From an uncultured Bacteroidales bacterium (GTDB lineage: Bacteria > Bacteroidota > Bacteroidia > Bacteroidales > Muribaculaceae): DNA of 64,000 nt. Positions 7,646 through 24,860 of this stretch are shown one piece after another. Numbering within the stretch: the stretch's first letter is position 1; every line of letters begins with the position of its first letter. The translations under genes were made by a program, and so were the position numbers. The stretch lies in NCBI GenBank assembly GCA_902760865.1, contig CACWID010000005.1:1-64000 (forward strand). Direction: 5' to 3'. The notes beneath the pieces are model-generated. The model worked only from the letters and a program-made list of their open reading frames with translations. It searched no databases and had not been told where the DNA came from.

Positions 7646-9391
7646 TCACGCCACGAAACCCACACGGCGACGATCTGCCATAGAGTCGTTGATGCGCTCT
7701 TCACTACAGAGGGTGGTCAGCTCGGTCAAGCGGTCGGTCTGCTCAAGGTCGCCCAAAATGCCGTCGATGGCAAACTTGCGAGCCACATTCTCAATCTGAC
7801 CGCCGCTGAAGTCGAACCCTTCGGCCAGCGTCTTGCACTCGTTGTCGCCCAGTTCGGGAATCATTGCGTGCCAGATGTGCTCTCTCACGCTCGCGTCGGG
7901 ACGCTCAAACTCCACCTTGTAAAGGAAACGGCGCTCGAAGGCACTGTCCAGATTCTCGGTCAAGTTGGTGGTGGCTATCATAATGCCGTTGAGGGTTTCC
8001 ATTTCTTGCAAGATGATGTTTTGGATGGAGTTCTCCATTTTATCAACCGCATTTTCAGCGCCGGTCTTGCGGACCCCGATGATGGCGTCAGCTTCGTTGA
8101 ACAGCAGAATGGGTGCCACTTCGGTCCTTGCCACCATTGCGCGGTATTTCTCAAAGACGGCCTTGATGTTCTTCTCGCTTTCGCCTACCCATTTGCTCTT
8201 GATGTCGGGCACTTCGATGGCCATAATGTCGCGGCCAGTCTGACGAGCGAGCTGATAGACGGTCTCGGTCTTGCCAGTGCCCGGTCCGCCGTACATCAAG
8301 CAAGTGAGTCCACAGCGGTTGAAACGCTCCTTCATTCGCTCCACGAGCACCTTATAGTTCTCATTGTCGAGGAAGCCGCGCAACTTGTCCACTTGCTTGC
8401 CTACCTTGTCACTGTAAAACAGATTCTTGGTGGTGATGCTATCGGCTTGGATAACCCCGCTCAGCTTCTCTTCTTTGGTCTTGAGATCAATGGACGCGAG
8501 CAGTTCTGTACGAGCTTTTTCAGTTAACGTGAAGCTGTTAGTATCCGCAACTCCGTTATGACACGAGAACTCTATCAGCTCGCACAGCATCAGCAAATGA
8601 TTTCCCGAACGGAGCTCTGACCTAATACGAGCGAAGTCGCTCTTGTTGGGGAAGATATCGTCGAGCTGATAGAAACTGAGTTCGGAATCGTCTTCGTTGA
8701 CGAGTTTGTCACAGAATTCTACGAGCAAGAGGCGGTCTTTGGCTTCCAATGGATACTGATTGACCTTCTTGACGAAATCCAAATCGGTGTTCTCGCTGAA
8801 GATTTCCTCGACTTCTTCGAGCAGCAATCCTTGCTTGATGCCTTCTTCTTCCAGTTCGTTGAAGAAGTCGTGATAATAGCCCAGCAGACTCTCGGTGTCG
8901 GAGAAGTTGCGCTGCGGAGCTTCGTAATCCGCATTGGCGATGAGCGAGCGGAGGGCTCTTGCCGAGATGTTGTAGGACGAAGCCTTGTTGCCGAAACTGT
9001 TCGTGAGGCCCAGCAGACGGCACCGCACCAGCTCGTTGAGCGTGTCGACAAGCGTCAGTGCTTGCGCATTTGAAAAGTGCAATGCCCTAGCGAAGCTCTT
9101 GAAGTCAATGTTCGAAGGTCCGACTTCAACGCAGATGCAGAAGACCGCAGCTTGCATAGGGGTGACGTGCAATCGCTTGGCCAGATAATCAATGTTGTTA
9201 CCCCGCACCTCAGATAAGTTGAGGTCATCGTCACTCTCGCGGACATAGGCTGAGAGCTTGGCGTTGACGTTGTCGATAGCTTCAAGCAGTGACTTGGGCT
9301 TTTTGCGTGTCCCTAGACTGATGCCTTTCGACTTGTTCTTGACAGCCTTGCATTCTTCTTCGGAAATGATGTTGTTTTTCTTCGTCTTCAT
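7646..9391 (-). CDS. AAA+ ATPase, SpoVK-like
   Basis: A 581-residue protein with an uncharacterised N-terminal half (about 1-330, largely helical) and a C-terminal AAA+ module. Walker A is GGPGTGKT at 368-375, the Walker B region is ILLFNEAD at 428-435, sensor 1 is TTN at 474-476, and the arginine finger region is ERRF at 486-489. In Walker B the aspartate before the catalytic glutamate is asparagine (Asn432). A pore-loop-like segment KWVGESEKN is present. AAA+ modules of this kind remodel proteins or nucleoprotein complexes; the partner is unknown. Confidence 0.85.
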   Translation of the reverse strand: MKTKKNNIISEEECKAVKNKSKGISLGTRKKPKSLLEAIDNVNAKLSAYVRESDDDLNLSEVRGNNIDYLAKRLHVTPMQAAVFCICVEVGPSNIDFKSFARALHFSNAQALTLVDTLNELVRCRLLGLTNSFGNKASSYNISARALRSLIANADYEAPQRNFSDTESLLGYYHDFFNELEEEGIKQGLLLEEVEEIFSENTDLDFVKKVNQYPLEAKDRLLLVEFCDKLVNEDDSELSFYQLDDIFPNKSDFARIRSELRSGNHLLMLCELIEFSCHNGVADTNSFTLTEKARTELLASIDLKTKEEKLSGVIQADSITTKNLFYSDKVGKQVDKLRGFLDNENYKVLVERMKERFNRCGLTCLMYGGPGTGKTETVYQLARQTGRDIMAIEVPDIKSKWVGESEKNIKAVFEKYRAMVARTEVAPILLFNEADAIIGVRKTGAENAVDKMENSIQNIILQEMETLNGIMIATTNLTENLDSAFERRFLYKVEFERPDASVREHIWHAMIPELGDNECKTLAEGFDFSGGQIENVARKFAIDGILGDLEQTDRLTELTTLCSEERINDSMADRRRVGFVA

Positions 9392-10419: not shown

Positions 10420-11952
10420 TCATTGAGTGGCTTCGCGGAGTTTCTCCCACACCTTAACCATGGCCCATGTGTCGAGTTCGCAATAGCGGAGGAGGGCCTC
10501 GCGGGTGGCTTCAGCCTCGTCGGGATCCATATGTTGAATCTGGGGGAAGATGGTCATGGCATCGCCTCCATTCTGGACACGCTCATCGAGGTTGTGATAG
10601 TTGAGTGAGGGCTCATCGGGAAAGAGGGCCGGCAGCACGCTCTTGATGCTGAAGGAGCCTCCCATCGCGGGCAGGTAGTAATAGCCTTTGCGGAAAGGAA
10701 CGAGCAGGTCCTTGATATTTTCCTTGATGTCGAGTAAGTGATCGGCCAGGTCGGGATAAATGGCCGCCATCTCCTTGAGACGGGTGCACTCAAAATCCTT
10801 GTTATAGACCAAAGTGCATACACCCATAGGGATGTCACGGCAAAGCTGCTCTGCCAGTCCACGGCGCGGATCGCCACCATTGCTCGGGGCAAGGTATTCG
10901 CGATGCTCGTAGGGGGCATCAGCGCTCTGTTTGATATGCAATGAGTACTGGAAACAAAGTTGGGAATAGGGCTTGGCGTCGTCATATTGGGGTATGGCGT
11001 CCTGCATGGACTCGAAGTCCAGGAAATAAAGCGGGTACTGCAACTCGGCAAGGAACTCGTTTATTCCGTCACGGTTGACAAGTCCACATTGGTCAAGTGT
11101 ACAAGCCACTTGCATGTTCTGTATATCACCCAGATCCTTGTCACGAAGTCTGTCGTACGTGATATCGCCAGCGTTGTAACGATTCAGCTTTTTCTCAAAG
11201 GTAAAGCCACCTCGCCCCTTGCCACCATATACATCAAACACTGACGGCTGTGGCAAGTGGCAGGTGCAGTATTTCCAGAATCCGCAAGGATAAGGCTTAT
11301 GGCAGCCCATGTTCAGGTCGGTGGTGAGTTCATCCGTTCGTTCCATCGTCTTCATGGCACGCTCCACATTGACAGGAACGGATAACAGATCTCCCGCAAT
11401 CTTTTCTTCCATGTCAACCTTAACGAAGAGGTTAGGAATGTCGAGATCGCCATCGCGCACATATTCTTTATTGAGGCAGACAAGAAAAGTTCCCGTCACT
11501 TTAACGCCACACTGCGTGAGCAACCATTTCTGGTATGCGATATCGGGAATATATTTGTCAATCTTGTTGGGATCTTTTTCATCGGGATAAGTGACACTTT
11601 TCACCTCGTAGATGGCCCAGCCACCAGGCGTCTTGCGCAGGATATCCACAGCGCAATAGTTGCCATTATATAAGAACGAGGCCTCGCAGATGTTCTCCAC
11701 GCCCTCGGCCATCCACTGGCGTGTCTGCTCAGTCATGGCAGCAAGGTCGAGGCTTCCGTCAGCCTTTTCGGCATGTGCCTCTTTATAGTCACCGAAGAGG
11801 CCCATTGCCAAGTCTCCCACCTCATTGCCTTGTTTAAACCGCGCTTCGGTGGCCTCGTCCACCTCCTCCAATTCGGGCTTATACATTTTCAACCACAGTG
11901 CCTTATCGCACTGGCAATATTTGGTGTACTTCGATTTAGATAATCCTGACAT
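10420..11952 (-). CDS. DUF2779 protein (Cas4-like plus DEDD-type nuclease)
   Basis: A 510-residue protein of the DUF2779 family. It opens with LSKSKYTKYCQCDKALWL, the Cas4/RecB-like start. A cysteine cluster CHKPYPCGFWKYC (about 217-229) completes the candidate iron-sulphur ligands. A DEDD-exonuclease-like segment YFLDFESMQDAIPQYDDAKP follows near 305, with later acidic positions around YNKDFECTRLKE. Homologues are thought to be nucleases acting in DNA defence or repair, but the activity is inferred. It is 39 bases downstream of the first HTH protein gene and likely co-transcribed. A truncated copy lies at 3845-4015. Confidence 0.8.
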   Translation of the reverse strand: MSGLSKSKYTKYCQCDKALWLKMYKPELEEVDEATEARFKQGNEVGDLAMGLFGDYKEAHAEKADGSLDLAAMTEQTRQWMAEGVENICEASFLYNGNYCAVDILRKTPGGWAIYEVKSVTYPDEKDPNKIDKYIPDIAYQKWLLTQCGVKVTGTFLVCLNKEYVRDGDLDIPNLFVKVDMEEKIAGDLLSVPVNVERAMKTMERTDELTTDLNMGCHKPYPCGFWKYCTCHLPQPSVFDVYGGKGRGGFTFEKKLNRYNAGDITYDRLRDKDLGDIQNMQVACTLDQCGLVNRDGINEFLAELQYPLYFLDFESMQDAIPQYDDAKPYSQLCFQYSLHIKQSADAPYEHREYLAPSNGGDPRRGLAEQLCRDIPMGVCTLVYNKDFECTRLKEMAAIYPDLADHLLDIKENIKDLLVPFRKGYYYLPAMGGSFSIKSVLPALFPDEPSLNYHNLDERVQNGGDAMTIFPQIQHMDPDEAEATREALLRYCELDTWAMVKVWEKLREATQ

Positions 11953-11991: not shown

Positions 11992-13491
11992 TTACTCACG
12001 CTTAGGAAGGTCACAGGGCATGATGTTGTATTTCAGGCCAGCTTCTACAGCCCAATAATCATCAAAGCTTTGTGGAGCGACATGAGGGATATTTTCGGTG
12101 TATATGCCTTCAAGATCCTGGGCCAACAAATCGGCCAAAGCGGCTTCGGCAGCCCATACCAGAGCTTGTGCCATCTCGGGGCTATGCTCCTCCAACCACG
12201 GGAAGAACTTGCCCATGTCATCATACTCGTCCAGACCTTTCAGATCGGTTTGCCAAGCAAGATGATAGAGATCGGAGAGTGTATTAACTTCTGCCTCAGT
12301 CAACGTCAAGTTTAGTCCTTCGACAAGATAACCATCAACCTCAACGTTGCAATCAACGATTCTGGTTTTAGGCTTTTCTGCAGCACTATTTTGCTTGGCG
12401 CACATCTCGTTAAAATCGATAATGTCCTGAATGAACTCGGGCAGGTGAGTCTCTTCATTGAGTTCACTCCCAGCGGCGATGAAGTCCGAGGCATATTCCC
12501 ACTCGCTCTGCGAATAGGCCTGTGCGGTTGGATAGTCAATGCCATCGTGCAATTGCGGCAGCCCCATAAGGATTTCAAAAAATGATGCACGAATGCTCAT
12601 TAGCTGATAGTCCTTGCGCATATCTTTGGGAATCTGATGTTTGCTGATATAGTTCAGGACCTGCTCATGCAGTCCTGCATCGATAGCCCATGACAAAAGA
12701 CTATTCCTGTTCCAGCGATAAACCACAATGAAGAACTGCTCGTGCCGCTCTGGGAAAAGAGACATCTCATTCCCCCACTGATCAAATGTTAGAACATCTT
12801 TCTTCTGAGACCTAGTCGCGATGGGGTCGGTGTGGATGATGCACACCATCTTCTTGTTCACACCGCTCTGCACATAGCAGATTTCGTTCAGCCGTTTCTT
12901 GCTTTCTTCAACGGAGTCAAACGTGTTGCGGTCTATATAGTCAATAAAAACCTTGGCTGATTCGGAATTCAACTTAGCAGCGTCCAAAAGTTTGGGACAT
13001 GGAGTTGAGCCTGTCCCAGGAAATACCTTACTTGCCACTTGCTTTACCACCTCTCGAGCGCCGAAGGTATAGCCTGCCTCAAGGATAAGTAAGGGTGTGT
13101 TCTGATCGCTCTCGAAATATTCCTTGAGCAACGCCTTGAGACCTTCACGCTCCTTGGCGAATTCATGAGTGGCATACAAATCACCGTCCACTACATTTTC
13201 CACAATATCGCTCAATGAATGTAACTTCAAGTTGGCCATTGGGGATGATACAATTCCTAACTTCAAGTTGACCCTATGGCACAGTTCTTCAAAGAAATTA
13301 TGGCGCAGTACCTCTGAGATTTTAGCCAGCATCCCCGAATTCATGGTTTCTTGACCGTAGATGTTATAAACGGCGGTGCGAGAAACATGAATCTTTTCGG
13401 CAAATGTGGTGGGGCTTATACCTTGGCGTTCCACCTCCTCCTTGATTAGCTGTCCTATTTCTTTGTCTTTATTTTCTTTGTCTTCTTTCAT
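11992..13491 (-). CDS. Large HTH (XRE-like) protein, 499 aa
   Basis: Residues about 8-65 form an XRE-like helix-turn-helix (SPTTFAEKIHVSRTAVYNIY as turn and recognition helix). A second region near 115-150 (LKALLKEYFESDQNTPLLIL) resembles the corresponding part of the HTH protein at 20046-21266, which has the same layout (helix segment followed by PLVIFYNNW). The C-terminal 200 residues are acidic and helical and unrecognised. It lies 49 bases downstream of the 227-aa protein gene and is presumably driven from the tandem-element promoter at 14289-14368. A regulator of that element is a reasonable inference. Confidence 0.7.
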   Translation of the reverse strand: MKEDKENKDKEIGQLIKEEVERQGISPTTFAEKIHVSRTAVYNIYGQETMNSGMLAKISEVLRHNFFEELCHRVNLKLGIVSSPMANLKLHSLSDIVENVVDGDLYATHEFAKEREGLKALLKEYFESDQNTPLLILEAGYTFGAREVVKQVASKVFPGTGSTPCPKLLDAAKLNSESAKVFIDYIDRNTFDSVEESKKRLNEICYVQSGVNKKMVCIIHTDPIATRSQKKDVLTFDQWGNEMSLFPERHEQFFIVVYRWNRNSLLSWAIDAGLHEQVLNYISKHQIPKDMRKDYQLMSIRASFFEILMGLPQLHDGIDYPTAQAYSQSEWEYASDFIAAGSELNEETHLPEFIQDIIDFNEMCAKQNSAAEKPKTRIVDCNVEVDGYLVEGLNLTLTEAEVNTLSDLYHLAWQTDLKGLDEYDDMGKFFPWLEEHSPEMAQALVWAAEAALADLLAQDLEGIYTENIPHVAPQSFDDYWAVEAGLKYNIMPCDLPKRE

Positions 13492-13540: not shown

Positions 13541-14224
13541 TCAAAATATTGGCTCAACTCCATCAAAATCAAGCTCAAATAAAACGTCTATTTCGTTCAC
13601 ATAGATGTAGCAATTGCAGTAATCGTCATTTTCCTCGGCCAGATTTACCAGTTCTTCGTTCCAAGCCTTAATGTCATCAATGCTCTTGACGGGATGATTG
13701 AGCTTGTTGCACATATAGGCCAAAGCGTCTTCTTCAGTATTCAGATATTCATCAAACTGCAAAAAACCATCCATGGCCTCATCGCTATCGTTGGGCACTA
13801 AGCCACGCAGATAGTAACGGCACGGAAAATATTTTCCCTCGACATCATTGGTCTCATAAACCTCGCTGCCCGGCTCTTCACGATAGAAGTAATACTTGAA
13901 ACTGGACCATTTCTCAGCTATAAGGGCCAACATGCCTTCCGGGGCCTCCCAAGCCGATTCAAAAGTGATAGCAAGCGCATCATCGCCGCGACGCTCAAGA
14001 TCATACCATGTCCCTTTGCAATTATACCCATTCCAATCCTGGCCTAATTCGTTGATAATAAAACCGAGCCATGTCGAACCCCAACTCACGTCTTTGATAG
14101 GAAAGTCTTCTTCCTTCATCGCTTCAAGTCGGCGGAGCATAGCCTCAAACTCGTCTAGTTCGGCCTTCTTGCCCTCAATCACATAATTTGATAACATGTA
14201 GTTTGCCATAATAATCTTCTTCAA
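13541..14224 (-). CDS. Api92/YubB ferredoxin-like domain protein (tentative)
   Basis: A 227-residue acidic soluble protein. The order WGSTWLGF, QDWNGYNCKGTWYD, FESAWEAPEGML and EKWSSFKYYFYREEPGSEVY resembles the Api92/DUF1281-type proteins of mobile elements, which have a W-G-T-K-W stretch, then TAWSPP and YxExG. The family has no established activity. The gene carries the shared leader motif at 14234-14263 and the tandem element further upstream, so it heads the operon with the HTH and DUF2779 genes. Confidence 0.55.
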   Translation of the reverse strand: MKKIIMANYMLSNYVIEGKKAELDEFEAMLRRLEAMKEEDFPIKDVSWGSTWLGFIINELGQDWNGYNCKGTWYDLERRGDDALAITFESAWEAPEGMLALIAEKWSSFKYYFYREEPGSEVYETNDVEGKYFPCRYYLRGLVPNDSDEAMDGFLQFDEYLNTEEDALAYMCNKLNHPVKSIDDIKAWNEELVNLAEENDDYCNCYIYVNEIDVLFELDFDGVEPIF

Positions 14225-14288: not shown

Positions 14289-14368
14289 CAAAATTACTCC
14301 ACACCGTCAAACCTCACCAAATATTCATGTATCATAATTCTTGACAGCCGTGTCAGGATAATTGGACA
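14289..14368 (-). promoter_or_regulatory. Promoter with tandem TGTC...GACA element (site A)
   Basis: The -7 box TAATTTTG is at 14289-14296. A clear copy, TGTCCAATTATCCTGACA on the minus strand, lies at 14351-14368 and a weaker copy at 14329-14346. The near edge is 33 bases upstream of the -7 box. The same geometry is found at three other promoters in the region, which supports a common regulator. Confidence 0.65.
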
Positions 14369-14454
14369 CTCGACATTACTCCGCAATACTCTGATATTTG
14401 TATGATGCCATTGGAGTGTAAAATAAAGATGTCTATTATCATGCTATCTCCAAT

Positions 14455-15366
14455 TTAACTCTCTTTGTACCATTTGGTTAGAAGATTGCCATTTTGTTGG
14501 TTTTGGGCATATTCGAACCCTATATGATATGCTTTTAGAGCTTCTTTATAGATATGTTTAGCTTTATCATCTTTGATATCATCTATATTTTTAAACGTGT
14601 CATAAAGCCCTAATTCATTTAATCTCTCAGTAGAACGAGCCGTAAAGAGCCCCTGGTAGAACAAGTTAAAACCATTCTTTTTATTATTGACAGAGTCTTT
14701 GATACCAGCATTAAATGCATCTATCTGGATTTGAGCTGAATTAAGAGTTACTACAACTTCATCATATAAATCCTTCCACCAGGTTAATGCGCTTTCATTA
14801 AAACAGATTTTATGCTCATTTCTCTCGGATTCAAATTCAGAGTCAGAGGAAGGCAGTCCAAACTCCGAACAATATTCTTTTAGTTTCTTGAATCTTAGCT
14901 CAAGGCTATCTATTATGTTGCCATCTGCATCTTTTCTTTTAGATTCGAGTCGCTGTTTTATTTTCTTTTGTGATTCATTACTCTCATCATATTCATTCAT
15001 ATCCATGTATTTCCACCACAACTTTGAACCTTTACTGCCGTTGCACTCTCTACAACAAGGTACAAGATTCACCAACTCTGTGCAATAACCAGACGGCTGT
15101 TGGTTTCTTATCAATGGAAATAGGTGATCCAATTCTAATTTTTCTGGCGAACTCCCACAATATACACACGAGATAGGATTTCTCACATTATCCCCATATA
15201 AGTATTTCATCCACTTAGCTATAATATCTTCGTCATCGTCTTCATTGATTTTAATTCTTGGCATTAATGTAGATGCCATTGACCTTGCAACCGTTGAACG
15301 CCTTGTACTTATTTTATCGGCCTGTGGATATTTTAGACCTTTAATCTTATCTGTTTTTCTTGACAT
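14455..15366 (-). CDS. HNH endonuclease
   Basis: A 303-residue protein from the ATG at 15366 (a longer frame adds 34 poorly supported residues). The HNH/zinc module is CVYCGSSPEKLELDHLFPLI, then NLVPCCRECNGSKGSKLWW: two CxxC-type pairs, the LDH histidine, the N of LVNLVPCC, and the final NGSKG. The C-terminal 170 residues are helical and unknown. The AT content is higher than in the neighbours, suggesting separate acquisition. Such proteins are found in restriction systems, phage and mobile DNA. Confidence 0.85.
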   Translation of the reverse strand: MSRKTDKIKGLKYPQADKISTRRSTVARSMASTLMPRIKINEDDDEDIIAKWMKYLYGDNVRNPISCVYCGSSPEKLELDHLFPLIRNQQPSGYCTELVNLVPCCRECNGSKGSKLWWKYMDMNEYDESNESQKKIKQRLESKRKDADGNIIDSLELRFKKLKEYCSEFGLPSSDSEFESERNEHKICFNESALTWWKDLYDEVVVTLNSAQIQIDAFNAGIKDSVNNKKNGFNLFYQGLFTARSTERLNELGLYDTFKNIDDIKDDKAKHIYKEALKAYHIGFEYAQNQQNGNLLTKWYKES

Positions 15367-15539
15367 AATGATAATTCTTTTGTAATTATATCTTTTGATT
15401 TGTATGCAAATTTCGCCAAAATGTTTGATATACGCAAGAAAGCTCCTAAAAAACGAATCAACCAACATATGTCTTGATTCTTGTCTTCAGTTGAAATTCT
15501 TTAGCAGAACGATTGTAATAGATGCCTCTTTAGGGATGA

Positions 15540-15731
15540 TTATTTTGAGTAATCGTACCAGCTGCCGATGCAAGCGGTGTTTATCTCAGTTGTAAATTCT
15601 CCGTTATCATCCACCCAACCCTGTTGACCGTTAAGCCAGATCCTGACATAATCCTTGCTCCAGGCCTCCATACGTTTGAACACAGGTGGAGCATAAACGC
15701 CCCATCTGCTTCCTTTATTATCACTCGGCAA
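15540..15731 (-). CDS. Possible small hypothetical protein
   Basis: A frame of up to 63 codons starting at a TTG that overlaps the stop of the 53-aa gene upstream; the first ATG is 20 codons in. The segment VRIWLNGQQGWVDDNGEF has a WG-repeat-like look (QGWVDDNGEF). It may be a short co-translated protein or the remains of a larger one. Confidence 0.35.
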   Translation of the reverse strand: MPSDNKGSRWGVYAPPVFKRMEAWSKDYVRIWLNGQQGWVDDNGEFTTEINTACIGSWYDYSK

Positions 15732-15882
15732 GTTTCACGTCGAGAAATTCGCACTCGTTGTATTTGGCGAAGGCACTGGCTTGCCATTGCCAGATGGCCT
15801 CATGCTCACAGGTGGCACTGGTGTGGTAAATGTTGAGACAATCGTCTCCCTTGATTTTAAAATAGACTTTGTATCGTTCCAT
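15721..15882 (-). CDS. Small hypothetical protein, 53 aa
   Basis: The ATG at 15882 gives MERYKVYFKIKGDD, followed by a strand with YHTSAT, a helix CEHEAIWQWQASAFAKY and a last strand EFLDVKLAE. This strand-strand-helix-strand pattern matches the small proteins at 9947-10126 (YRVRYRIEG) and 18740-18943 (YHVKFRVHY). The family is unknown to me. Confidence 0.6.
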   Translation of the reverse strand: MERYKVYFKIKGDDCLNIYHTSATCEHEAIWQWQASAFAKYNECEFLDVKLAE

Positions 15883-15949
15883 AATATCTTTGTTTGGTTA
15901 GTTCAACAACTGATTAATCTGAGTTCTCTGAATTAGCATCCGCCTCCAT

Positions 15950-15971
15950 GAGCCGCAAGATTTTGCGGCTC
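15950..15971. repeat. REP-like hairpin, GAGCCGCAA type
   Basis: GAGCCGCAA and TTGCGGCTC form a perfect 9-bp stem around GATT. It lies between the 53-aa and 74-aa protein genes and has no T tract, so it may be a dispersed repeat rather than a terminator. Confidence 0.5.
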
Positions 15972-16015
15972 TACGCGGTGGCGATTTGATCAATCTCATT
16001 CATTGGCAACAGGTT

Positions 16016-16240
16016 TTAGAAAAGTTGATAATCGTTACCGGTAAGGATTGAAACGGGCTTGACCAGATAGCACAGGATCAAGCCGAAAGCAGTCACAGTG
16101 ACGTGACCCCAGAAGGAAAGAGGAGCGAAAATGCCCATCCAAACGACGAACAGCGGGACGTTGATGATGGCGACGACGGCCAGCGACATCAGTGTTGCAA
16201 AAAACAATTTAACCATAATTTCTCCTTTCATATTTTTCAT
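16016..16240 (-). CDS. Small two-helix membrane protein, 74 aa
   Basis: Two hydrophobic segments (about 11-37 and 43-60) predict two membrane helices with short ends. The start could be MKNMKGE at 16240 or the internal ATG giving MVKLFF. It has its own promoter with an exact -7 box TAACTTTG, and the tandem element (site B) lies upstream of it. The function is unknown. Confidence 0.6.
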   Translation of the reverse strand: MKNMKGEIMVKLFFATLMSLAVVAIINVPLFVVWMGIFAPLSFWGHVTVTAFGLILCYLVKPVSILTGNDYQLF

Positions 16241-16244
16241 GGTG

Positions 16245-16324
16245 CAAAGTTACGGCTGTCCCACGACCCCCAGAAGCATTTCGCGTCGGTATGTCTTGAC
16301 ACCCAGTGTCGGAAAAACTGGACA
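16245..16324 (-). promoter_or_regulatory. Promoter with tandem TGTC...GACA element (site B)
   Basis: The -7 box TAACTTTG is at 16245-16252. The two copies read, on the minus strand, TGTCCAGTTTTTCCGACA (16307-16324) and TGTCAAGACATACCGAC (16285-16301). The near edge is 33 bases from the -7 box. Confidence 0.7.
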
Positions 16325-16443
16325 AAAACAAGCCCTGAAAACATCAGAGCTTGTTGATTATAGGTTAGAGATTAGAAATCAGCGAGTTGATACACTACTG
16401 AAGGTCAAGCCGAACATCTAATTCGATAAGTCATCTCGGGCTA

Positions 16444-17580
16444 TTACTCCTTAAGGATTCTTTTGGCAGCGGGAATGATGACGTCGTGAATGACGGATTC
16501 GTTCATGCGGTGCTCTCCATGGAAATCTTCCACATGGGTGAAATGTTGGGCAAACTCATCCTTGCAGTTGACCAGTGTATCTCCGTCAGCGAAGAATCCC
16601 CAACAGTCAAACCTGCTTTCATTGGTCTCGCGAACAAACAGGTTCTGCTCCATATTCTTGAAGTGCTCAATGATTTCTTCGGTAATCGTGAAGTGCGTCT
16701 GACCATCGGCTGTCGGCTGGAAGCGCTCAAAGATGCCCACATGCAGGACATCCTTCACCTCAGAAAGATGCAGAGCCGGATTAACGCAGATGCGCAAATG
16801 GCGTGTCATCTGCATGGCATACATGCCTCCCATGCTGGTGCCGATAACGAGGTCGGCGTGATGTGCTCTACAATACTCCTCCAGGAACGGCAATGCTTCT
16901 TTGGGGTCAACGGGGATATCTGGAGCAATCACATTGTAGCCAGGCATGTTTTTAGCCAGATATTTCGCCGTATTGCTTTGACTGCTGGATCCATAGCCAT
17001 GTAGATAAACGATTGTTTTAGTTTGTGGAATGCCATAGACCCTTTCGGCCAATTCATCCAACAGTTCAAGTGGATAGCGGTCCCAGATAGTAACAATCTG
17101 TTCTTCACTGCCGTTGTCACAACCTTCGTAACAGTCATAATCATCCTCATCTTCTCCCAACATCGCTTGCACAAAGTTTTTGATACCTTTCAGCATCTGC
17201 AACTCCTCCTCATGCTGATGTTCAGTATCCCTCTCGACAAGATCCTTGATAATGGCATCACGCAACTGTTCGAGAACTCCGAGCCTTGCAAGTATACTAC
17301 CGAATTGACAGGAAACCAGGTGGTAAGCTATACGTCCGTGAGCAGAAGTATAACCATGGCTACAGCCATCAGCTGAACCGATATAGCCACCATAATAAGG
17401 CTCATCAGCAAGGTCTTGCTCGAAGTCCTCATCGTCCTCACAGTTTTCAATATCGTCTCTCACGGCCTCTTCGAGCCCGTCCACTTCTTCATCCCAAACA
17501 TCTTGGGGAACAGTCACATATACATCAAAAAGCAAATCGTCTCCAACTTGGGCAAACACTTTTATCTTCTTTTCGTTCAT
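16444..17580 (-). CDS. YqiA/UPF0227-type alpha/beta-hydrolase with N-terminal extension
   Basis: The C-terminal half (about 190-378) is a YqiA-like esterase: TIVYLHGYGSSSQSNTAKYL, the nucleophile elbow GTSMGG, the acid region FADGDTLV and the histidine region FHGEHRM. The N-terminal 185 residues are unusual for the family; they are acidic (two runs of Asp/Glu, EDDEDFEQD and GEDEDDYD) with the histidine- and cysteine-containing stretch SADGCSHGYTSAHG. It has a -7 box TATATTTG at 17612-17619. A decayed C-terminal copy lies at about 4400-4470. Substrates are probably small esters, but this is inferred. Confidence 0.75.
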   Translation of the reverse strand: MNEKKIKVFAQVGDDLLFDVYVTVPQDVWDEEVDGLEEAVRDDIENCEDDEDFEQDLADEPYYGGYIGSADGCSHGYTSAHGRIAYHLVSCQFGSILARLGVLEQLRDAIIKDLVERDTEHQHEEELQMLKGIKNFVQAMLGEDEDDYDCYEGCDNGSEEQIVTIWDRYPLELLDELAERVYGIPQTKTIVYLHGYGSSSQSNTAKYLAKNMPGYNVIAPDIPVDPKEALPFLEEYCRAHHADLVIGTSMGGMYAMQMTRHLRICVNPALHLSEVKDVLHVGIFERFQPTADGQTHFTITEEIIEHFKNMEQNLFVRETNESRFDCWGFFADGDTLVNCKDEFAQHFTHVEDFHGEHRMNESVIHDVIIPAAKRILKE

Positions 17581-17611
17581 ACGTATAATTGATTTGTGGA
17601 TTTATTTGAAT

Positions 17612-17619
17612 GCAAATAT
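17612..17619 (-). promoter_or_regulatory. -7 promoter box for the esterase fusion gene
   Basis: TATATTTG on the minus strand, 31 bases before the esterase start. Confidence 0.5.
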
Positions 17620-17646
17620 AGTCAATTTTGCTGAATTATTCAATGG

Positions 17647-18558
17647 TTACTCGTAATCATCTTCTGGCCAAGGCTTCAGAATGAGGTCAAGAGGATTCTC
17701 GATATAGCGGCTGACAAAGCGCACTGCAATGTCGCCCAGTTCCTTGTCGGGGTTGTGCTCGGCGATGAACTGCACTGCCTCCTGCTCTGTATCGCACTCT
17801 GTCTTGGCATAGACCATATCCTGAATGCAATACTTATAATGCTCATGGTTGATAACACTTTCACGGTCATCGGCAGGCACGTAGACGGCTGCATGCTTGC
17901 CCCAGCAGCTGCCTTCATGGTCGTTGGTTAGTCGGTTGATCACCTCATCACTGCTATCAAACGGAACGCGGCAGAAAACCACATCCTTGAACGTGCCGGC
18001 CATAAGGGCTATCAACGATGCACTCGAGAACTCATCGGTGACGATCTGAATAAAAACCCCCTCATTGCGATCTTCAATGATGGCTTGATCGCAGGTCGCT
18101 TCCATATCCTCCAGAAAGTCGCAGAACATCTCGTTGAGCGACTTGGCGCGCTCATCGTTCACGAACAGCTTGGTTACATATAAGCCCCTATTCAGCACAC
18201 CACTCGGCTGCGGCCCCTGCAAGCTGATGCCAGTCCCCGTTGTGCTCTGCACGACGTTGACCCTGCGGATATCACGCGTGAGCAGGCAGGTCTCGGCGTG
18301 ATTGTCCGCACCCTCATACAAAACAAAGTGCTCATCCACCTCTACGGGCAAGGCAAGAATCCGGGCGATGGATTCGGCAACAGACTGGAAATTCTCGGGT
18401 TTGAAAAGATCCTCACTAGTGTCAATTTCCACGGTGTTCTCGTTAACACGCACCTCGCAGTGGTCAAACATCTGGTCATAGTTGTCACAGAAACCGGCGA
18501 TGCGGTCGATGGGTTCGCTGATACCCCGGAGGGCGTTCTTTAGTTCTTTTACTGTCAT
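17647..18558 (-). CDS. Hypothetical protein, 303 aa
   Basis: I do not recognise this protein. It is soluble and acidic and appears to have alternating alpha/beta structure. Notable stretches are FVLYEGADNHAETC near 82-95, a glycine-rich loop STTGTGISLQGPQPSG near 107-122, and GSCWGKHAAVYVPADD near 218-233. The upstream promoter carries the tandem element (site C) and a 12-bp palindrome at the predicted transcription start, so it is a prime member of the shared regulon. Confidence 0.6.
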   Translation of the reverse strand: MTVKELKNALRGISEPIDRIAGFCDNYDQMFDHCEVRVNENTVEIDTSEDLFKPENFQSVAESIARILALPVEVDEHFVLYEGADNHAETCLLTRDIRRVNVVQSTTGTGISLQGPQPSGVLNRGLYVTKLFVNDERAKSLNEMFCDFLEDMEATCDQAIIEDRNEGVFIQIVTDEFSSASLIALMAGTFKDVVFCRVPFDSSDEVINRLTNDHEGSCWGKHAAVYVPADDRESVINHEHYKYCIQDMVYAKTECDTEQEAVQFIAEHNPDKELGDIAVRFVSRYIENPLDLILKPWPEDDYE

Positions 18559-18591
18559 GATTCGATATATTTTATTGATGAATAATCGTTT

Positions 18592-18629
18592 GCAGCGTCA
18601 AATCCCGCTCTCGGAAGATTTGACGCTGC
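18592..18629. promoter_or_regulatory. 12-bp perfect palindrome at the transcription start
   Basis: GCAGCGTCAAAT and ATTTGACGCTGC pair perfectly around a 14-base loop. The right arm abuts the -7 box (18629-18636) and covers the predicted transcription start. It could be a repressor site or a 5' stabilising hairpin. Confidence 0.6.
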
Positions 18630-18707
18630 AAAATTATATCGACTCCAAAACCCGACCAACTATTTTTCGTCGGTTAAACTGGACGATACCGTCGGGAAAA
18701 CTTGACA
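18629..18707 (-). promoter_or_regulatory. Promoter with tandem TGTC...GACA element (site C)
   Basis: The -7 box TAATTTTG is at 18629-18636. The two copies read, on the minus strand, TGTCAAGTTTTCCCGAC (18691-18707) and CGTCCAGTTTAACCGAC (18669-18685). The near edge is 33 bases from the -7 box. Confidence 0.7.
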
Positions 18708-18739
18708 GCCCCTATTTGCCGCAAGATGATTACGACTTA

Positions 18740-18943
18740 TCAGACTATCTTAATCACAGACATTGTCACATAGTTGACCTTGCGGCCCTTAAAATCACGC
18801 TGTTCAGCCAAAGCATCCATGCGGCTTGAGCCCTGACTGCCATCAGAATACCAGTGATACTTTTCCTCGCTGATGACTTCATCAAACTCGTCGGTCGTTC
18901 CTCCAACGTAATGTACACGGAATTTCACATGATAGTTTCTCAT
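18740..18943 (-). CDS. Small hypothetical protein, 67 aa
   Basis: It begins MRNYHVKFRVHYVGG and ends with the strand VNYVTMSVIKIV; a glutamate-rich part (DEVISEEKYHWY) and a helix (SSRMDALAEQRDF) lie between. It belongs to the same loose group as the 53-aa and 59-aa proteins. It carries the shared leader motif and a -7 box TATTTTTG at 19016-19023. Confidence 0.6.
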   Translation of the reverse strand: MRNYHVKFRVHYVGGTTDEFDEVISEEKYHWYSDGSQGSSRMDALAEQRDFKGRKVNYVTMSVIKIV

Positions 18944-18967
18944 ATCTGTTTTTCATTTATTGGTTAA

Positions 18968-18996
18968 ATGCCTACGTCCTTTCATGCGATTCGGCT
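18968..18996 (-). promoter_or_regulatory. Shared leader motif
   Basis: On the minus strand AGCCGAATCGCATGAAAGGA then CGTAGGCAT, 24 bases before the start codon. It matches the copy at 14234-14263 in nearly every position. Confidence 0.6.
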
Positions 18997-19106
18997 ACCT
19001 CTATTTTTATTTCCACAAAAATATATCATTTTTGATAATGAGGTGCTACAATTCCGCTCTTTTTATCATCATCACAAGAAGAAAAAGTGTTCACTAGCTC
19101 CACTGA

Positions 19107-19964
19107 TTACTCGTATTCTTTGAGGCTGAAGGTGATATTGTGGTCGGTCAAGAAGGCCTTGATTGGGGCCAGGGTGCCGTCGCTGCCTTTCAGCATAGCC
19201 TCGAGTGCATGCAACAGGCCGTCAGCGTTATAGGCGCCCACGAGGTGGCACAGGGCTGCCACATCATCAACAGTAATCTCAGCAATAGGGTTGATGTCAA
19301 AATCCTCGGTCGATTCTTCGTAGAGCTCAACGCACTTTTCGCTGATGGTGGCCACCACATGGCAGATATAGCCCTTGCCGTTATCCCAGACCGACACCTC
19401 GTCGCCAGCTTTGCCAAATCCTTTAGATCGGGCGAGAATTTCCTGAACGGTCGAGAAGACGATAATGCCAGTAGTGCTCATGGGCTGTGGGCACTTGTCC
19501 ATGATGCGCCGGTAGGTCACGGGATGCATTGTCTCTAGGTCTTTCATGCCATAAGAAGCTCTGTCCTTGATACGCAACATCAACGCCACAAAATCCTCCA
19601 TGGGCAAATAGGCGTTGAACGGAATCACTTGCAGCCCCTTGTCCAGCAAGGTACACGTCAGCATGAAGTGTGCCGCAGGAGCAATACGCTTCACGGTCAT
19701 GGATACGCCGTCGACCGGAGCGCTCCAGTCCACGCGCTCAATCAGCGGACGCTCATCGTTCTGGTCCAGCAATGCCGCCACCTCACCGGCGGTGAGATGG
19801 CGCCAGCGAGTAACCCGCATTCCATCGGCTGTTTCCGCCTCATAGGGGTACACGATGTGCTCGTCATAAACCTTGACAAGTTGTTCAAAGATGCGCTGTT
19901 CGCGCTGCAGCAAATGTTCGTTTTTCAAGCAAAAGGGCCTTCCGTTAAAATAGCAAGTTCTCAT
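19107..19964 (-). CDS. Hypothetical protein, 285 aa
   Basis: No family is recognised. The protein is soluble, with about equal helix and strand. The first third contains the YxHIVYPYEAETADGMRVTRW-like stretch (35-55), the middle IIVFSTVQEILARSKGF (about 166-182), and a WDNGKGYICHVVATISEK part (about 193-210) that looks like a small beta-sheet. It is 80 bases downstream of the second HTH protein gene on the same strand, so it may be its operon partner. Confidence 0.55.
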   Translation of the reverse strand: MRTCYFNGRPFCLKNEHLLQREQRIFEQLVKVYDEHIVYPYEAETADGMRVTRWRHLTAGEVAALLDQNDERPLIERVDWSAPVDGVSMTVKRIAPAAHFMLTCTLLDKGLQVIPFNAYLPMEDFVALMLRIKDRASYGMKDLETMHPVTYRRIMDKCPQPMSTTGIIVFSTVQEILARSKGFGKAGDEVSVWDNGKGYICHVVATISEKCVELYEESTEDFDINPIAEITVDDVAALCHLVGAYNADGLLHALEAMLKGSDGTLAPIKAFLTDHNITFSLKEYE

Positions 19965-20045
19965 TATCAGGTAATATAAATTATTGATTTATAGTAAAAT
20001 AATCTGCGCCTCCAGGCTTTCGAGCAGTATTGCTTGAATATGTGT

Positions 20046-21266
20046 TTACGCCTCCTTTTCGGCGTCTTGGCCTGATCTTTCTAAACAATTTTGCATAATC
20101 GAGCCTTCATAATCATAGACTCTGTTTTCTTCGGCTTCAATCCAAAGCGAAGTGAGGGCATAGGCTTTCTTGAGGCGTTCGGGCACCATTTTAGAAACAT
20201 ACCATTCATAATTTTCACAAGCGGGCAGGATGATTCTCCATCTGGAATTGTCTTCCTTCTTGATGATTACTTCATCGTCCATATACATAAGACTATAGAC
20301 AGACAATTGGCAGTTCTTCTCGGCCACCTCTTCAATCCATTGCCGATAGTCTTCCATGAGGAGATTTGGGTTGTTCAGCCAGTTCCAAACCAAAGCATGA
20401 TTTGGATCTTCTCCCAATTTGAGGCTTGGCAGTACGCTGATCTTTCTCAGAACAAACCGGATTATATCCTTCCACTTATAGGCAAGATACAATTGACGGT
20501 TACGCCTGTAGCTTTGCCTTTCGTCGTCAAGATAGGCAAAATGGATCTGCTCGCGCCAGGCGCCAAAGGCCTCGATGGCACGGTCCCAATACTTGATGCC
20601 ACTATTATAGTCATCCTTCAGCGCATTTTCTTCCGAGCAATAGGCATACACTTTCTTGCCTGTCTCGTCGGCCAATCTTTTCATGAAAAGAAATGACTCA
20701 TCATCATTCCCGCAATTCACTTGCACGATGGGTTGCGGCATGACCTTGTAATCACGGATAATATCGTCATCCGATTTTCCTTTCTTGTGCAGATCATTCA
20801 GATTAATATACTTTACTTGCCCAGGGCACAAATCCGTGTCAGCATATAGTTCAATGATGTCTTTCTGAACCGATTGCCAGTTATTGTAAAAAATCACCAG
20901 GGGCTTGTGGTGCTCGGTGTTGACAAACTCCTCGGCCAGTTGATAAAAGCGCTCACGATCAATCACACGGAGTTTGTCCTCGGGCATCAGCATCTCAAAG
21001 CGCTCCCTCACCACACTCTCATCCTCCTTCTTGTCGAGGATGCCTCCATTCTTGAGCGCCTCAGATAACTCCTTGAAGAAGTCTCGCCCCAGCACACGCT
21101 GCACCATGGCCAGGCGGTCGGTGGCGATGTAGTTCTTCTTGAAGATGTCATACACGGCCTGCGGCGAAAGATTAATCTCCCCGGCCAACTCTCTTGCGGT
21201 CATACCCTTTGCCCGCATCTCTTTCTCAATCTCGTGTCCAATGTGATATTTTTCCATATTCTCCAT
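20046..21266 (-). CDS. Large HTH protein, 406 aa (second copy of the layout)
   Basis: The ATG at 21266 (MENMEKYHIGHE) is chosen; the longer frame adds 42 residues that run back over the leader. An HTH occupies about 5-60, with GMTARELAGEINLSPQAVYD. After a linker comes RFYQLAEEFVNTEHHKPLVI, then an alpha/beta region with VQVNCGNDDESFLFM and KVYAYCSEENAL, and a helical C-terminus. The order matches the 499-aa HTH protein. The promoter (site D) carries the tandem element, so self-regulation is plausible. Confidence 0.7.
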   Translation of the reverse strand: MENMEKYHIGHEIEKEMRAKGMTARELAGEINLSPQAVYDIFKKNYIATDRLAMVQRVLGRDFFKELSEALKNGGILDKKEDESVVRERFEMLMPEDKLRVIDRERFYQLAEEFVNTEHHKPLVIFYNNWQSVQKDIIELYADTDLCPGQVKYINLNDLHKKGKSDDDIIRDYKVMPQPIVQVNCGNDDESFLFMKRLADETGKKVYAYCSEENALKDDYNSGIKYWDRAIEAFGAWREQIHFAYLDDERQSYRRNRQLYLAYKWKDIIRFVLRKISVLPSLKLGEDPNHALVWNWLNNPNLLMEDYRQWIEEVAEKNCQLSVYSLMYMDDEVIIKKEDNSRWRIILPACENYEWYVSKMVPERLKKAYALTSLWIEAEENRVYDYEGSIMQNCLERSGQDAEKEA

Positions 21267-21355
21267 ACTTTTTTTCTTTGAACAAATATAATATTTTTTT
21301 CTGAAGAAAGCAAATAATCGACTCCAATTATCCCCTTTTTCAAAAAATGATGCTA

Positions 21356-21436
21356 CAAAAGTAGGACGAATCTTCCGATCCGTCCCACACATTTTCGTCG
21401 GTAAAACTTGACACCTCCTGTCGGAAAAGCTGGATT
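21356..21436 (-). promoter_or_regulatory. Promoter with tandem TGTC...GACA element (site D)
   Basis: The -7 box TACTTTTG is at 21356-21363. The two copies read, on the minus strand, AATCCAGCTTTTCCGACA (21419-21436) and TGTCAAGTTTTACCGAC (21397-21413). The near edge is 34 bases from the -7 box. Confidence 0.7.
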
Positions 21437-21578
21437 AAACAGCATTGGACTTGAAGTCATGATATCCATCCGAAAACAAAATCTTGCATGTCTTCGGTAA
21501 CAAGGATTGCAGAAATTCAAGTAAATGCATTGAAATGCGTGGATTTAATCCCTAATTGGATATGAAAGGACTCAAATG

Positions 21579-22148
21579 TCACTGGGTTAGTAGATTGGAG
21601 TCGTAGAGGTCGCTGGGGGCGACGACTAGTTGGGTGCTGTTGATGCCGCGCTTGGCGAGGACTTTGTCCAGGCCGGTTGTTGCATAGTCGCTGACGGGGC
21701 GAGGTTGGCAGAGCTCCACGCCGAGTTGCCGCTTGTAGATGTCATAGACCAGTTCGGAGCAGTACCACTTGCCATTGTCGAACTTGAAGGAGAGGTCGTA
21801 GGGCTTGCCCATGTATTTGGTGTACTTGATCTTGATGGGCTCCTCGGTGTAGCGCTTCATGCCGACGCGCTGGCCGCGGCCTCTTTCCACCCATTGCTGA
21901 TAGGGCGTCAGGCTGACCGTTGAGATGGCCTCGAGGACGTACAGGCCGTCGGGCTTCTCGATGATGATGCCGCAATGGGACCACGGCGACCGGGTTGCCG
22001 CGATGATATATTTCGACTGCGATGACTTGGACGTCTGGAAGACGATGTCGCCCTCCTTCAGCTCTATTGCATCAGGTCTTGAGCATGAAACGGTTGTGAA
22101 AAGGCATAGTAACCCGATAATGTTGCAAAAGAAAAAGAGATGTTTCAT
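21579..22148 (-). CDS. YiiX-like permuted NlpC/P60 lipoprotein
   Basis: A 189-residue lipoprotein: the signal sequence ends TVSCS with the lipidated Cys at 22. The mature part follows the YiiX/YebB pattern of permuted papain-like enzymes: EGDIVFQTSKSSQS, SPWSHCGIIIE with the histidine, LEAISTVSLTPY, and WYCSELVYDIY with the catalytic cysteine. It probably acts on peptidoglycan peptides or lipids in the envelope. The gene begins directly after the CHAP-like amidase gene and belongs to the same run as the two membrane-protein genes. Confidence 0.8.
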   Translation of the reverse strand: MKHLFFFCNIIGLLCLFTTVSCSRPDAIELKEGDIVFQTSKSSQSKYIIAATRSPWSHCGIIIEKPDGLYVLEAISTVSLTPYQQWVERGRGQRVGMKRYTEEPIKIKYTKYMGKPYDLSFKFDNGKWYCSELVYDIYKRQLGVELCQPRPVSDYATTGLDKVLAKRGINSTQLVVAPSDLYDSNLLTQ

Positions 22149-22622
22149 TTATCTAGCTTGATTTGTATGGTTTTGTTTCTTGTATCGGTAAATACGATAT
22201 GGAACCGGCTTCCTGTATGGATTCATCGTTTGTTGTTTAAAATCGCTGATCCACTGTTCACCGTTATACATGGCAATATGGCCCCACCATTGCGAAATCC
22301 GTTTCCAGTTTCTCCAAGCGGGACGTTCAAACACTACGACATCACCTTTCTGGGGAATGTATCCATCATGAGGCACCTCTTCAAATTGGACCAATGGCAA
22401 GAAATAACGATACCACTGGGCTGGAAGGATAATAGCGGGGCAGCCTCCTTCTTGTAGTGCTCGCATTGTGTACCAGGCACAGCAATGGGTTGACTTTTCT
22501 TGCCCGTTCTCTGTCAGATGCTTTGTCGCTCTTTCAACATTAAAACTATAAGTCTGTGTCCAAACGGCATAAACAGCTATAGCAATAGACAGGACAAAAA
22601 ACACGTTTCTTGCTTTTCTCAT
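22149..22622 (-). CDS. CHAP-like amidase with N-terminal membrane anchor
   Basis: A 157-residue protein with a signal anchor (about 6-21) and a CHAP/NlpC-like domain. The catalytic cysteine is likely in THCCAWYTMRAL (about 46-57), followed by the QKGDVVVFERPAW strand and GHIAMYNGEQWISDFKQ with the histidine (about 113-129). This C-then-H order fits cysteine amidases of peptidoglycan. It lacks a lipobox. It is adjacent to the YiiX-like lipoprotein gene and the membrane protein genes. Confidence 0.75.
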   Translation of the reverse strand: MRKARNVFFVLSIAIAVYAVWTQTYSFNVERATKHLTENGQEKSTHCCAWYTMRALQEGGCPAIILPAQWYRYFLPLVQFEEVPHDGYIPQKGDVVVFERPAWRNWKRISQWWGHIAMYNGEQWISDFKQQTMNPYRKPVPYRIYRYKKQNHTNQAR

Positions 22623-22633
22623 TCAGGAAGCTA

Positions 22634-23140
22634 TCATTGTGTTTGCTTTGAGATCCACAAGCGGTTGAGAATCCACTTGCGGGGGACGGTGATTTCAAAC
22701 CAGAGCCACATCACCAGGGCGATGACAATGGACAGCACGCAGTAAACCCACAGGTTGACCTCGATGTAGGTCATATTGAGTTGGCTGGCAATCGCGTTCA
22801 AGTCCTCGACGCAGGCCATGAACTGTTCATGACAATTGCCGAGGTGCTCGTGAACCGGGTTCGGCTGGGTGTAGAGCTGGTAGAACTCCTTGCTGATGAG
22901 CCAGAAGGCGCAAGTCGCGGTGCCCGATGCCGTCAGGTTGATCATGCTCCATAACGAGAGTTTCTTGTACCAGTTGTACAGGGCGATTAACGTAATCACC
23001 GCCGGCATCGCCGTGAACAATGCGGGCCAGAAGTATATGCAGATATAGACACAGATTGTCTCGTAGTCAAGCCCCAAGACAAGACCTGCCACATAAAACA
23101 TGCCGCACAGGACGTAAAAGATATATTCCTGGAATGTCAT
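22634..23140 (-). CDS. Multipass membrane protein, 168 aa
   Basis: Four hydrophobic segments (about 8-24, 27-55, 65-82 and 131-149) predict a four-helix integral membrane protein, with a soluble loop at about 87-125 rich in Asn, His and Glu. No family is recognised. Its start overlaps the stop of the 61-aa gene by 4 bases (ATGA), indicating translational coupling, and the CHAP amidase gene follows 11 bases later. Confidence 0.65.
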   Translation of the reverse strand: MTFQEYIFYVLCGMFYVAGLVLGLDYETICVYICIYFWPALFTAMPAVITLIALYNWYKKLSLWSMINLTASGTATCAFWLISKEFYQLYTQPNPVHEHLGNCHEQFMACVEDLNAIASQLNMTYIEVNLWVYCVLSIVIALVMWLWFEITVPRKWILNRLWISKQTQ

Positions 23141-23322
23141 TTTCTTGCTTTTTTAATGATAAATTGAACACCGAGCTTCACTGCCGAGATCGCAATCACC
23201 AGCATGGCGATAATGAAGCCATAGAAAAAGATGCGGAACATGAGATGCTCGTTCATCGTGGCACAAAATGCCCTGTTCAGCATCGCATAGATTACATGAA
23301 TTAGAGTTTCCATATCAATCAT
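23137..23322 (-). CDS. Small single-helix membrane protein, 61 aa
   Basis: One strong hydrophobic segment (about 31-50) with a basic tail (KKARK). The first gene of the operon that continues into the 168-aa membrane protein, the CHAP-like amidase and the YiiX-like lipoprotein. A sigma-type bipartite promoter motif lies 30 bases upstream of the start (23352-23380). The ATG at codon 4 is an alternative start. Confidence 0.6.
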   Translation of the reverse strand: MIDMETLIHVIYAMLNRAFCATMNEHLMFRIFFYGFIIAMLVIAISAVKLGVQFIIKKARK

Positions 23323-23351
23323 CGATGTTTAAAAAAACGATCAGTTACTTC

Positions 23352-23380
23352 TTTATGACAAAATGGGGCAAAAGGTAAAC
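23352..23380 (-). promoter_or_regulatory. Candidate ECF-sigma promoter, copy 1
   Basis: On the minus strand GTTTACCTTTTG, five variable bases, then TTTTGTCATAAA (one base of each flank shown may belong to the spacer). The identical flanks at identical spacing occur at 25396-25424, with the sigma and anti-sigma genes between the two copies. Confidence 0.6.
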
Positions 23381-23478
23381 ATCGGTATTGTTATCCGCTT
23401 GATATTAAGCAAATTGCCCGCAAGCCAATCTGCTATGGCATTGCAGGCAATCCTGTTCTAATATGTGGAACGTAAATA

Positions 23479-24276: not shown

Positions 24277-24860
24277 GATCTTATTCTTTTATAGATTTCA
24301 TCCATCGCCGCTCTCACTTTGGTCAAGCAACGGCTTTTCTGTGTCGTGGCCACACGGGCATTGTTATAATCCATCGCAACAGCGATTTCTGCCATGCTAT
24401 CGCCTTCCCAATAATACGCCCACAGGATGCTTTTGCAAGGGTCAGGCATGTTGGTGACAATGTCATACACGGCCTGTTGCAATTCGTCCTGCTCCTCGAT
24501 GGCGTCTTTGTCAAGCCACCGGTCAATCGCATCTTGGGCGACACCCATGTCAACAGGATCAAGCAAATCATCATCATCCTGGCCCGACTGAGGTGGCATT
24601 GGGGCAGATTTTGCCTTGTCCCTTAGAGCCTCCAGTCCTTTGTTCTTTAACACACCTATGACGTAGGTCGTTAAGTTACTGGTCAATTGCGTCAGCGTCC
24701 CGTTTTGGACATTCTCAAACGTGGCCAGCATCGCCTCCTGAGTCAATTCCTCGGGAGACAAACCTGAAGAGCCAAAACGCCTGCGAGCCTCTTGCAGCAC
24801 AGCACAACGGACCTCCTCAAGGAATCTGCTATCTATCGAAAATGGAACCTCTGCCATCAT
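24273..24860 (-). CDS. ECF-type RNA polymerase sigma factor
   Basis: A 195-residue sigma-70 family protein. A region-2-like part (LTQEAMLATFENVQNGTLTQ, about 41-60) is followed by a linker and a region-4 helix-turn-helix near the C-terminus (CKSILWAYYWEGDSMAEIAV, then MDYNNARVATTQKSRCL). The layout fits an ECF factor. It is the first gene of the sigma/anti-sigma pair, with a -7 box TACTTTTG 20 bases upstream. Confidence 0.8.
   Translation of the reverse strand: MMAEVPFSIDSRFLEEVRCAVLQEARRRFGSSGLSPEELTQEAMLATFENVQNGTLTQLTSNLTTYVIGVLKNKGLEALRDKAKSAPMPPQSGQDDDDLLDPVDMGVAQDAIDRWLDKDAIEEQDELQQAVYDIVTNMPDPCKSILWAYYWEGDSMAEIAVAMDYNNARVATTQKSRCLTKVRAAMDEIYKRIRS

Follow-up and report, generated by a model that had tools for sequence, protein, structure and literature searches.

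A tandem promoter element confined to one conserved gene island in a genus of Bacteroidales, and two candidate regulators encoded by the island

In this work, we describe a tandem DNA element located upstream of four promoters, A to D, within a 64,000-nucleotide stretch (hereafter, the window) of contig CACWID010000005.1, from the assembly GCA_902760865.1 of an uncultured Bacteroidales bacterium. Each element consists of two tandem copies of an 18 bp unit, with consensus TGTCmAGTTTTnCCGACr, lying on the minus strand between 14.3 and 21.4 kb of the window, at a practically fixed distance from a TAnnTTTG -7 box. In the genomes searched, the element is conserved together with its phase, is restricted to one kind of gene island and co-occurs with one or both of two island-encoded, putative helix-turn-helix (HTH) proteins, D and E. 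The most probable reading is that of an island-restricted, autoregulated regulon of some rumen Prevotellaceae, which D and/or E would activate from a position at about -44 to -84.

Geometry, distribution and phase of the element

The four tandem elements pointed out in an earlier note, prepared from the letters of the window, are indeed present on the minus strand, with the spacings reported in Table 1; the gap of 33-34 bases to the -7 box given there reflects a count that differs by a base or two, not another geometry. The eight window copies of this degenerate unit match TGTCMAGTTTTTCCGACA at 9 to 18 of 18 positions, the poorest being the proximal copy of A, and only the outer four of the nine position pairs of the unit are symmetrical. 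PMC9723704 gives TAnnTTTG as the -7 consensus of the primary sigma factor of Bacteroidota, found at -12 to -5, which places the tandem element at about -44 to -84. By eye, the -33 regions of these promoters appear weak. A second TAnnTTTG is found at promoter D, starting at 21290 (-), 73 bases closer to the gene than the box of the element; L071, a related stretch, likewise features a second one before HTH D (genomes and cluster-containing stretches are designated by G and L numbers, respectively).

Scanning for a single unit gave weak signals, both in the window (12 matches at up to 3 mismatches, against 5.8 expected) and in the whole genome of origin (33 matches at up to 2 mismatches, against 26 for a reversed control pattern). 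The four window tandem elements, without the -7 box, were used to build a sequence-only model, R1. It returned four matches in the window, with E-values from 6.6e-9 to 7.5e-11 and nothing else better than 0.67, and the same four in the own genome. These own-genome E-values are circular, since R1 was built from those four sites; the independent tests are given by other genomes and by the spacing to the -7 box, which lies outside R1. The own-genome scan produced no further element at E ≤ 1, and hence no recurrence of the same tandem spacing at random intergenic positions, the outcome that would have spoken against the idea put forward in the earlier note.

Over 101 genomes of the genus, own included, R1 matches at E ≤ 0.02 were found in 9, for a total of 27 sites: 4 in the own genome and 23 in eight others (G017, G018, G020, G034, G095, G099, G114 and G121). 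Two weaker sites (L072 5975, L092 2750), detected by scanning the cluster stretches with R1, raised these figures to 25 non-window and 29 total elements, while R1 matches with E ≥ 0.37 in such stretches (12 of 24 rows in one scan, 1 of 14 in another) were discarded. All 29 elements fall within the same kind of gene cluster, at one locus per genome, except in G020, where two contigs are involved. A second model, R2, built from all 29 elements with the -7 box included, recognized the 29 sites at E ≤ 1.6e-10, the next match in the nine element genomes being at 0.035. Over the 101 genomes, the first match after the 29 was found in G061 (7.5e-5), with no island gene seen in 1.9 kb of sequence at that place, and was followed by others from 0.0019 upwards; at E ≤ 0.05, R2 matches 32 of the 101 genomes, strong matches being limited to the nine element genomes. 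When R1 was run on 397 genomes of the family, 11 were selected at E ≤ 0.01, 7 of which were already known genomes of the genus; the remaining four (E 0.0018-0.0088) are at about chance level for 397 genomes. The exact tandem pattern is absent from viral_contigs.

The first TAnnTTTG after the proximal unit is located at 31 bases in 17 elements and at 32 bases in 12, and thus the promoter feature of the primary sigma factor occurs at 31-32 bases in all 29; as background, any two-position window contains a box at a rate of 8e-4 over these loci, and of 2.5e-3 over the 200 bases preceding open reading frames (ORFs). These are not 29 independent events, since many of the elements are orthologues. 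The units themselves are spaced by 22 (15 elements), 23 (11), 21 (2) or 24 (1) bases. Sorting by downstream gene and spacer resulted in eight labels (B 7, D 7, C 6, A 4, G 2, and one each for H, I and J). Between different operons of one genome (43 pairs), identity is 87% for both the distal unit and the -7 box, 62% for the proximal unit and 37% for the spacer: element and -7 box are conserved, the intervening DNA in length only. Spacers of one promoter type are 68-78% alike across genomes. The six pairs of window spacers are 32-58% alike; the A/C pair, at 58%, beats shuffled sequences (fraction 0.001), the other five giving fractions of 0.04-0.62. The position of the element and its strict phase point to an activator contacting RNA polymerase from upstream; activators are usually placed upstream of the promoter, in a fixed phase.

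Some elements of different operons are nearly identical. In L072, elements B and C (8000-8040 and 10649-10689) are so over the whole pair, non-consensus bases included, and only one base differs, across units and linker, between L092 13795-13839 (B) and L094 6827-6872 (C); in both cases the flanks differ. Moreover, proximal units of one genome resemble each other more than they do those of other genomes (permutation p 0.001, against 0.066 for distal units, on 28 of the 29 elements). The nearly identical elements may be due to copying or to concerted change. The same observations would also agree with elements being nothing but copied DNA, left by recombination or gene-conversion tracts between operons and having no transcriptional role. 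This we regard as highly improbable: the spacer is not copied along, yet its length is constant to one base in all 29 elements, and the main operon order, D-C-B-A, is retained in several genomes instead of being shuffled.

HTH proteins D and E as candidate regulators

Both HTH genes of the window are found in element-bearing operons, and D and E are therefore candidate regulators as well as targets. Among the 101 genomes, long homologues (E < 1e-50) of D were detected in 7 (in one of which, G018, the copy lacks the HTH part) and those of E in 6, all of them genomes with elements. Overall, D or E is present in 8 of the 9 element genomes and in none of the 92 others (Fisher 4.5e-11, a figure which ignores linkage and descent), and 7 of the 9 feature an uninterrupted HTH of D or E. 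D is immediately preceded by an element in all 6 genomes with an HTH-bearing D, and E follows one directly, or one gene later, in 5 of 6. In G000, G020, G095 and G099, a variant of the proximal unit typical of A is found ahead of E genes or operons; in G095 it also precedes, in one case, a PD-(D/E)XK gene. Standard elements are retained both in genomes with D only (G017, G034) and in one where E alone has an HTH (G018), so that one and the same unit may be recognized by the HTH parts of both D and E. The window island encodes a further DNA-binding protein, a WYL/WCX-domain regulator at its far end (1545-2492, minus strand), whose only counterpart is in L072 (14849-15802, plus strand), also at the far island end.

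Within the cluster, the element is kept before orthologues of the element-bearing first genes, as the earlier note would have it, whereas the family of the 303 amino acid (aa) protein also occurs without it, only as homologues 32-44% identical, at 13 loci of 12 genomes. The latter provide a natural control: in these 12 genomes neither D nor E was found by tblastn, nor any element at E ≤ 1 by R2.

For D, a start near 21257, giving 403 aa, is more likely, because the longer ORF, of 448 aa, would reach into the -7 box of its own promoter. Its AlphaFold2 model has a predicted local distance difference test (pLDDT) score of 60.3, with a five-helix N-terminus at about 60; Foldseek returned HTH proteins among the top rows, with a best E of 0.008 and none at E ≤ 0.001, and a sequence search of solved structures found none for D. 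E gave weak profile matches to a PHROG HTH family (1.1e-5) and, in the L094 copy, to HTH_3 (0.0065), and one weak HTH match to a solved structure, the designed protein 8tac (E 0.0026), while its predicted structure is too poor for use (pLDDT 38.7). A large part of both proteins falls outside known families. In Prevotella sp. 885 (L141 2945-6887), a 27% relative of HTH D lies near a protein 54% identical to the window DUF2779 protein, with no element by R2.

According to the mechanism we propose, D and/or E, paralogous, putative Cro/C1-type HTH proteins encoded within the island, would bind both 18 bp units on the upstream side of the promoter and recruit the housekeeping RNA polymerase to promoters endowed with a good TAnnTTTG -7 box, switching on their own genes and the whole island together. 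Two units about two helical turns apart suggest that two dimers may be bound, and the presence of elements before the regulators' own genes or operons suggests a positive feedback, for which the second TAnnTTTG at 21290 could supply a basal level of D. The single activator, acting from about -40 to -80, of the earlier note is thus retained in part: that one regulator, or two paralogous ones, acts at all four promoters, probably as an activator, is well supported by the fixed phase, which extends to all 29 elements.

D and/or E might, alternatively, act as repressors on the element, leaving the island silent until derepressed. Cro/C1-type HTH proteins often are repressors, and the best, although weak, fold and profile neighbours include the repressors Stl and SinR and PHROG repressor families. 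However, the element lies upstream, clear of the -7 box, and simple repression needs no strict phase, yet this is kept over 29 elements; repression appears, on the whole, unlikely.

Several observations weigh against activation by D and E. The co-occurrence statistics alone cannot separate these two genes from the other island genes, being all linked in one island. The HTH match of D is weak (HTH_26, 19.2 bits against a Pfam cut-off of 22), and the window E has no Pfam match at E ≤ 0.01. In G018, where D has no HTH, no element belongs to E itself, which is found about 2.3 kb beyond element B; the only candidate of G121, an E protein, is interrupted near its start and ends early; G114 carries two elements (L095 7707-7744 and 10134-10173) but no long homologue of D or E. 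The DUF2779 ORF of G114 is just 74 aa long, and this is possibly a decaying island. In the window, R1 found no element before the AAA ATPase gene and the other genes at 1.5-10.4 kb. Finally, the similarity of spacers A and C indicates that some of the promoter DNA may share ancestry.

Composition of the gene island

The features of the window are collected in Table 1. The genes following the four promoters, described in the earlier note as otherwise unrelated, belong to operons that follow one another in a single conserved island, about 20 kb long. They form four groups, D (HTH D, 285-aa and 67-aa genes), C (303-aa and UPF0227 genes), B (74-aa gene, small ORFs, HNH) and A (Api92-like, HTH E, DUF2779), each probably a single operon, as judged from spacing and strand.

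Table 1. Elements, -7 boxes and genes of the island in the window
Feature	Position (strand)	Details
Element A	14329..14368 (-)	distal 14351-14368, proximal 14329-14346, spacing 22; before operon Api92-like / HTH E / DUF2779
-7 box of promoter A	14289-14296 (-)	TAATTTTG, gap 32 from proximal unit
Element B	16284..16324 (-)	distal 16307-16324, proximal 16284-16301, spacing 23; before 74-aa membrane protein gene
-7 box of promoter B	16245-16252 (-)	TAACTTTG, gap 31
Element C	18668..18707 (-)	distal 18690-18707, proximal 18668-18685, spacing 22; before 303-aa and UPF0227 hydrolase genes
-7 box of promoter C	18629-18636 (-)	TAATTTTG, gap 31
Element D	21396..21436 (-)	distal 21419-21436, proximal 21396-21413, spacing 23; before HTH protein D
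-7 box of promoter D	21356-21363 (-)	TACTTTTG, gap 32
HTH protein D	20046..21257 (-)	403 aa from start used; candidate regulator
285-aa protein	19107..19964 (-)	no known family; after HTH D
67-aa protein	18740..18943 (-)	after 285-aa gene
303-aa protein	17647..18558 (-)	no known family; first gene after element C
UPF0227 / YqiA-like hydrolase	16444..17580 (-)	after 303-aa gene
74-aa protein	16016..16240 (-)	membrane protein by eye; first gene after element B
HNH endonuclease-like protein	14455..15468 (-)	ORF as listed, start uncertain
Api92-like protein	13541..14224 (-)	DUF1281_C, under Pfam cut-off; operon A
HTH protein E	11992..13491 (-)	499 aa; D paralogue in HTH part; candidate regulator
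DUF2779 protein	10420..11952 (-)	Pfam 1.7e-44, weak Cas4 match; operon A
AAA ATPase (PF00004)	7646..9391 (-)	same island; no element found before gene

Window genes from the WYL/WCX regulator (1545) to HTH D (21257) have counterparts in at least one of ten other cluster stretches, with the exception of a 63-aa ORF; no counterpart was found in the same ten stretches for the flanking genes (50-937, 934-1548 and six from 21579 to 25354). Families common to the island copies include D, E, UPF0227, the 303-aa protein, the 74-aa membrane protein, the AAA ATPase (PF00004), DUF2779 and HNH, and a PD-(D/E)XK (PF14281) protein is found in the islands of two relatives. The small membrane protein, encoded by the first gene of operon B, lies beside D in the minimal locus of G034. 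In L094 and L069, R1 scans found no element in front of the DUF2779-HNH genes that come first. Besides the relative in Prevotella sp. 885, D homologues with named records come from five metagenome assemblies, assigned to Prevotellaceae or Bacteroidales; four of these are RUG isolates, which we take to derive from rumen. The window genome has the same genus label.

According to PMC3985635, DUF2779 proteins presumably act as 3'-5' exonucleases and in many cases include a part resembling PD-(D/E)XK. On the basis of its nuclease and ATPase genes, a defence-like or DNA-directed role of the island is plausible. PADLOC found no complete set of a known anti-phage defence system among 9 window proteins, with domain-level matches to HNH, Cas4 and HTH models only.

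Other features of these loci are worth recording. Two short island proteins of 115 and 125 aa, at window 2839-3186 (-) and L092 11119-11496 (+), match sigma-70 regions 1.2 and 2 in the manner of a fragment-like sigma mimic. Two tyrosine recombinase genes adjoin the island of G099 (L094 16259-17683 and 17849-19001); no recombinase was seen among the window island proteins scanned. The window contains no tRNA, and no 13-mer is common to positions 1-2900 and 21431-22200, at the two island ends. A small interspersed repeat lies at about 15905-15980, and seven further sites in the own genome match it at 84-93%. A phage origin was rejected, since D and E have no relatives in viral_contigs and D has no match in the phage collection; so was a plasmid origin, E having no match in the plasmid collection.

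Relation to known systems and significance

A close geometry is that of Bacteroides LytTR-type operons, where, according to PMC6193735, 11 bp repeats are placed 11 bp apart, 11 bp upstream of the -33 box and 34 bases before TAnnTTTG. Direct repeats with a period of about 22 bp, a similar distance to TAnnTTTG, autoregulation and the association of regulator and membrane protein in one module are all shared with these systems. It could thus be envisaged that a core-genome regulator, such as a LytTR protein binding direct repeats of this period, controls the island, D and E doing something else. In contrast with this view, no LytTR domain or gene was found among the island proteins scanned, the conserved unit, with its 18 bp and its TGTC/GACA ends, exceeds a LytTR repeat in length, and LytTR genes do not co-vary with the element, being found in 100 of the 101 genomes of the genus, with or without it. 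It would also be odd for a core regulator to have its targets in one island only. LytTR control of the element is, in our opinion, less likely than control by D and/or E, and quite unlikely in itself.

The C proteins of restriction-modification systems, in general, are short, single-domain proteins of about 80 aa, with palindromic operators. Those covered by PMC4824078 (C.Csp231I, C.PvuII) are Cro/C1-type HTH proteins, as D and E may be; they are encoded in the module they control, with two tandem operators before their own gene, and are described as activating at low level and possibly repressing at high level. Unlike them, D and E are 403 and 499 aa long, with a large part of no known family; the operators described here differ in sequence, sit further upstream and occur at several operons, and no restriction-methylation pair was recognized among the window proteins scanned. 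Bacteroidetes LexA-like SOS repressors, as presented in PMC8565304, are HTH regulators too, and have operators at several operons, among them their own, but they repress DNA-repair genes through the motifs CTAA-N5-TTAG and GGA-N5-TCC, from which our consensus differs; SOS control of the element was rejected on this ground.

Control of this kind is known. In the searches made, the island, the element itself and both long HTH families seem to be undescribed; the records listed by the literature searches included nothing on the element or the island, which is no proof that none is in print. Of the candidate undescribed system of the earlier note, the control logic is of a known kind, but the gene content may still represent such a system. 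A more ambitious reading, which we consider doubtful, is that D and E found a new class of long one-component activators, joining a Cro/C1 HTH to a sensor part outside recognized families. With the small membrane protein they would form a self-switching circuit, by which a multi-operon, defence-like island of nucleases and AAA ATPase, itself undescribed, would be turned on in a single step.

By our main reading, several unnamed families, annotated as separate hypothetical genes, would be tied into one programme under an island-encoded switch. The promoter signature may be used to find further members, and offers a testable regulator-operator pair in poorly studied bacteria of the rumen. The island is a possible entry to an unrecognized nuclease/ATPase system; should it prove ordinary, it would still be a clean example of a portable regulon.

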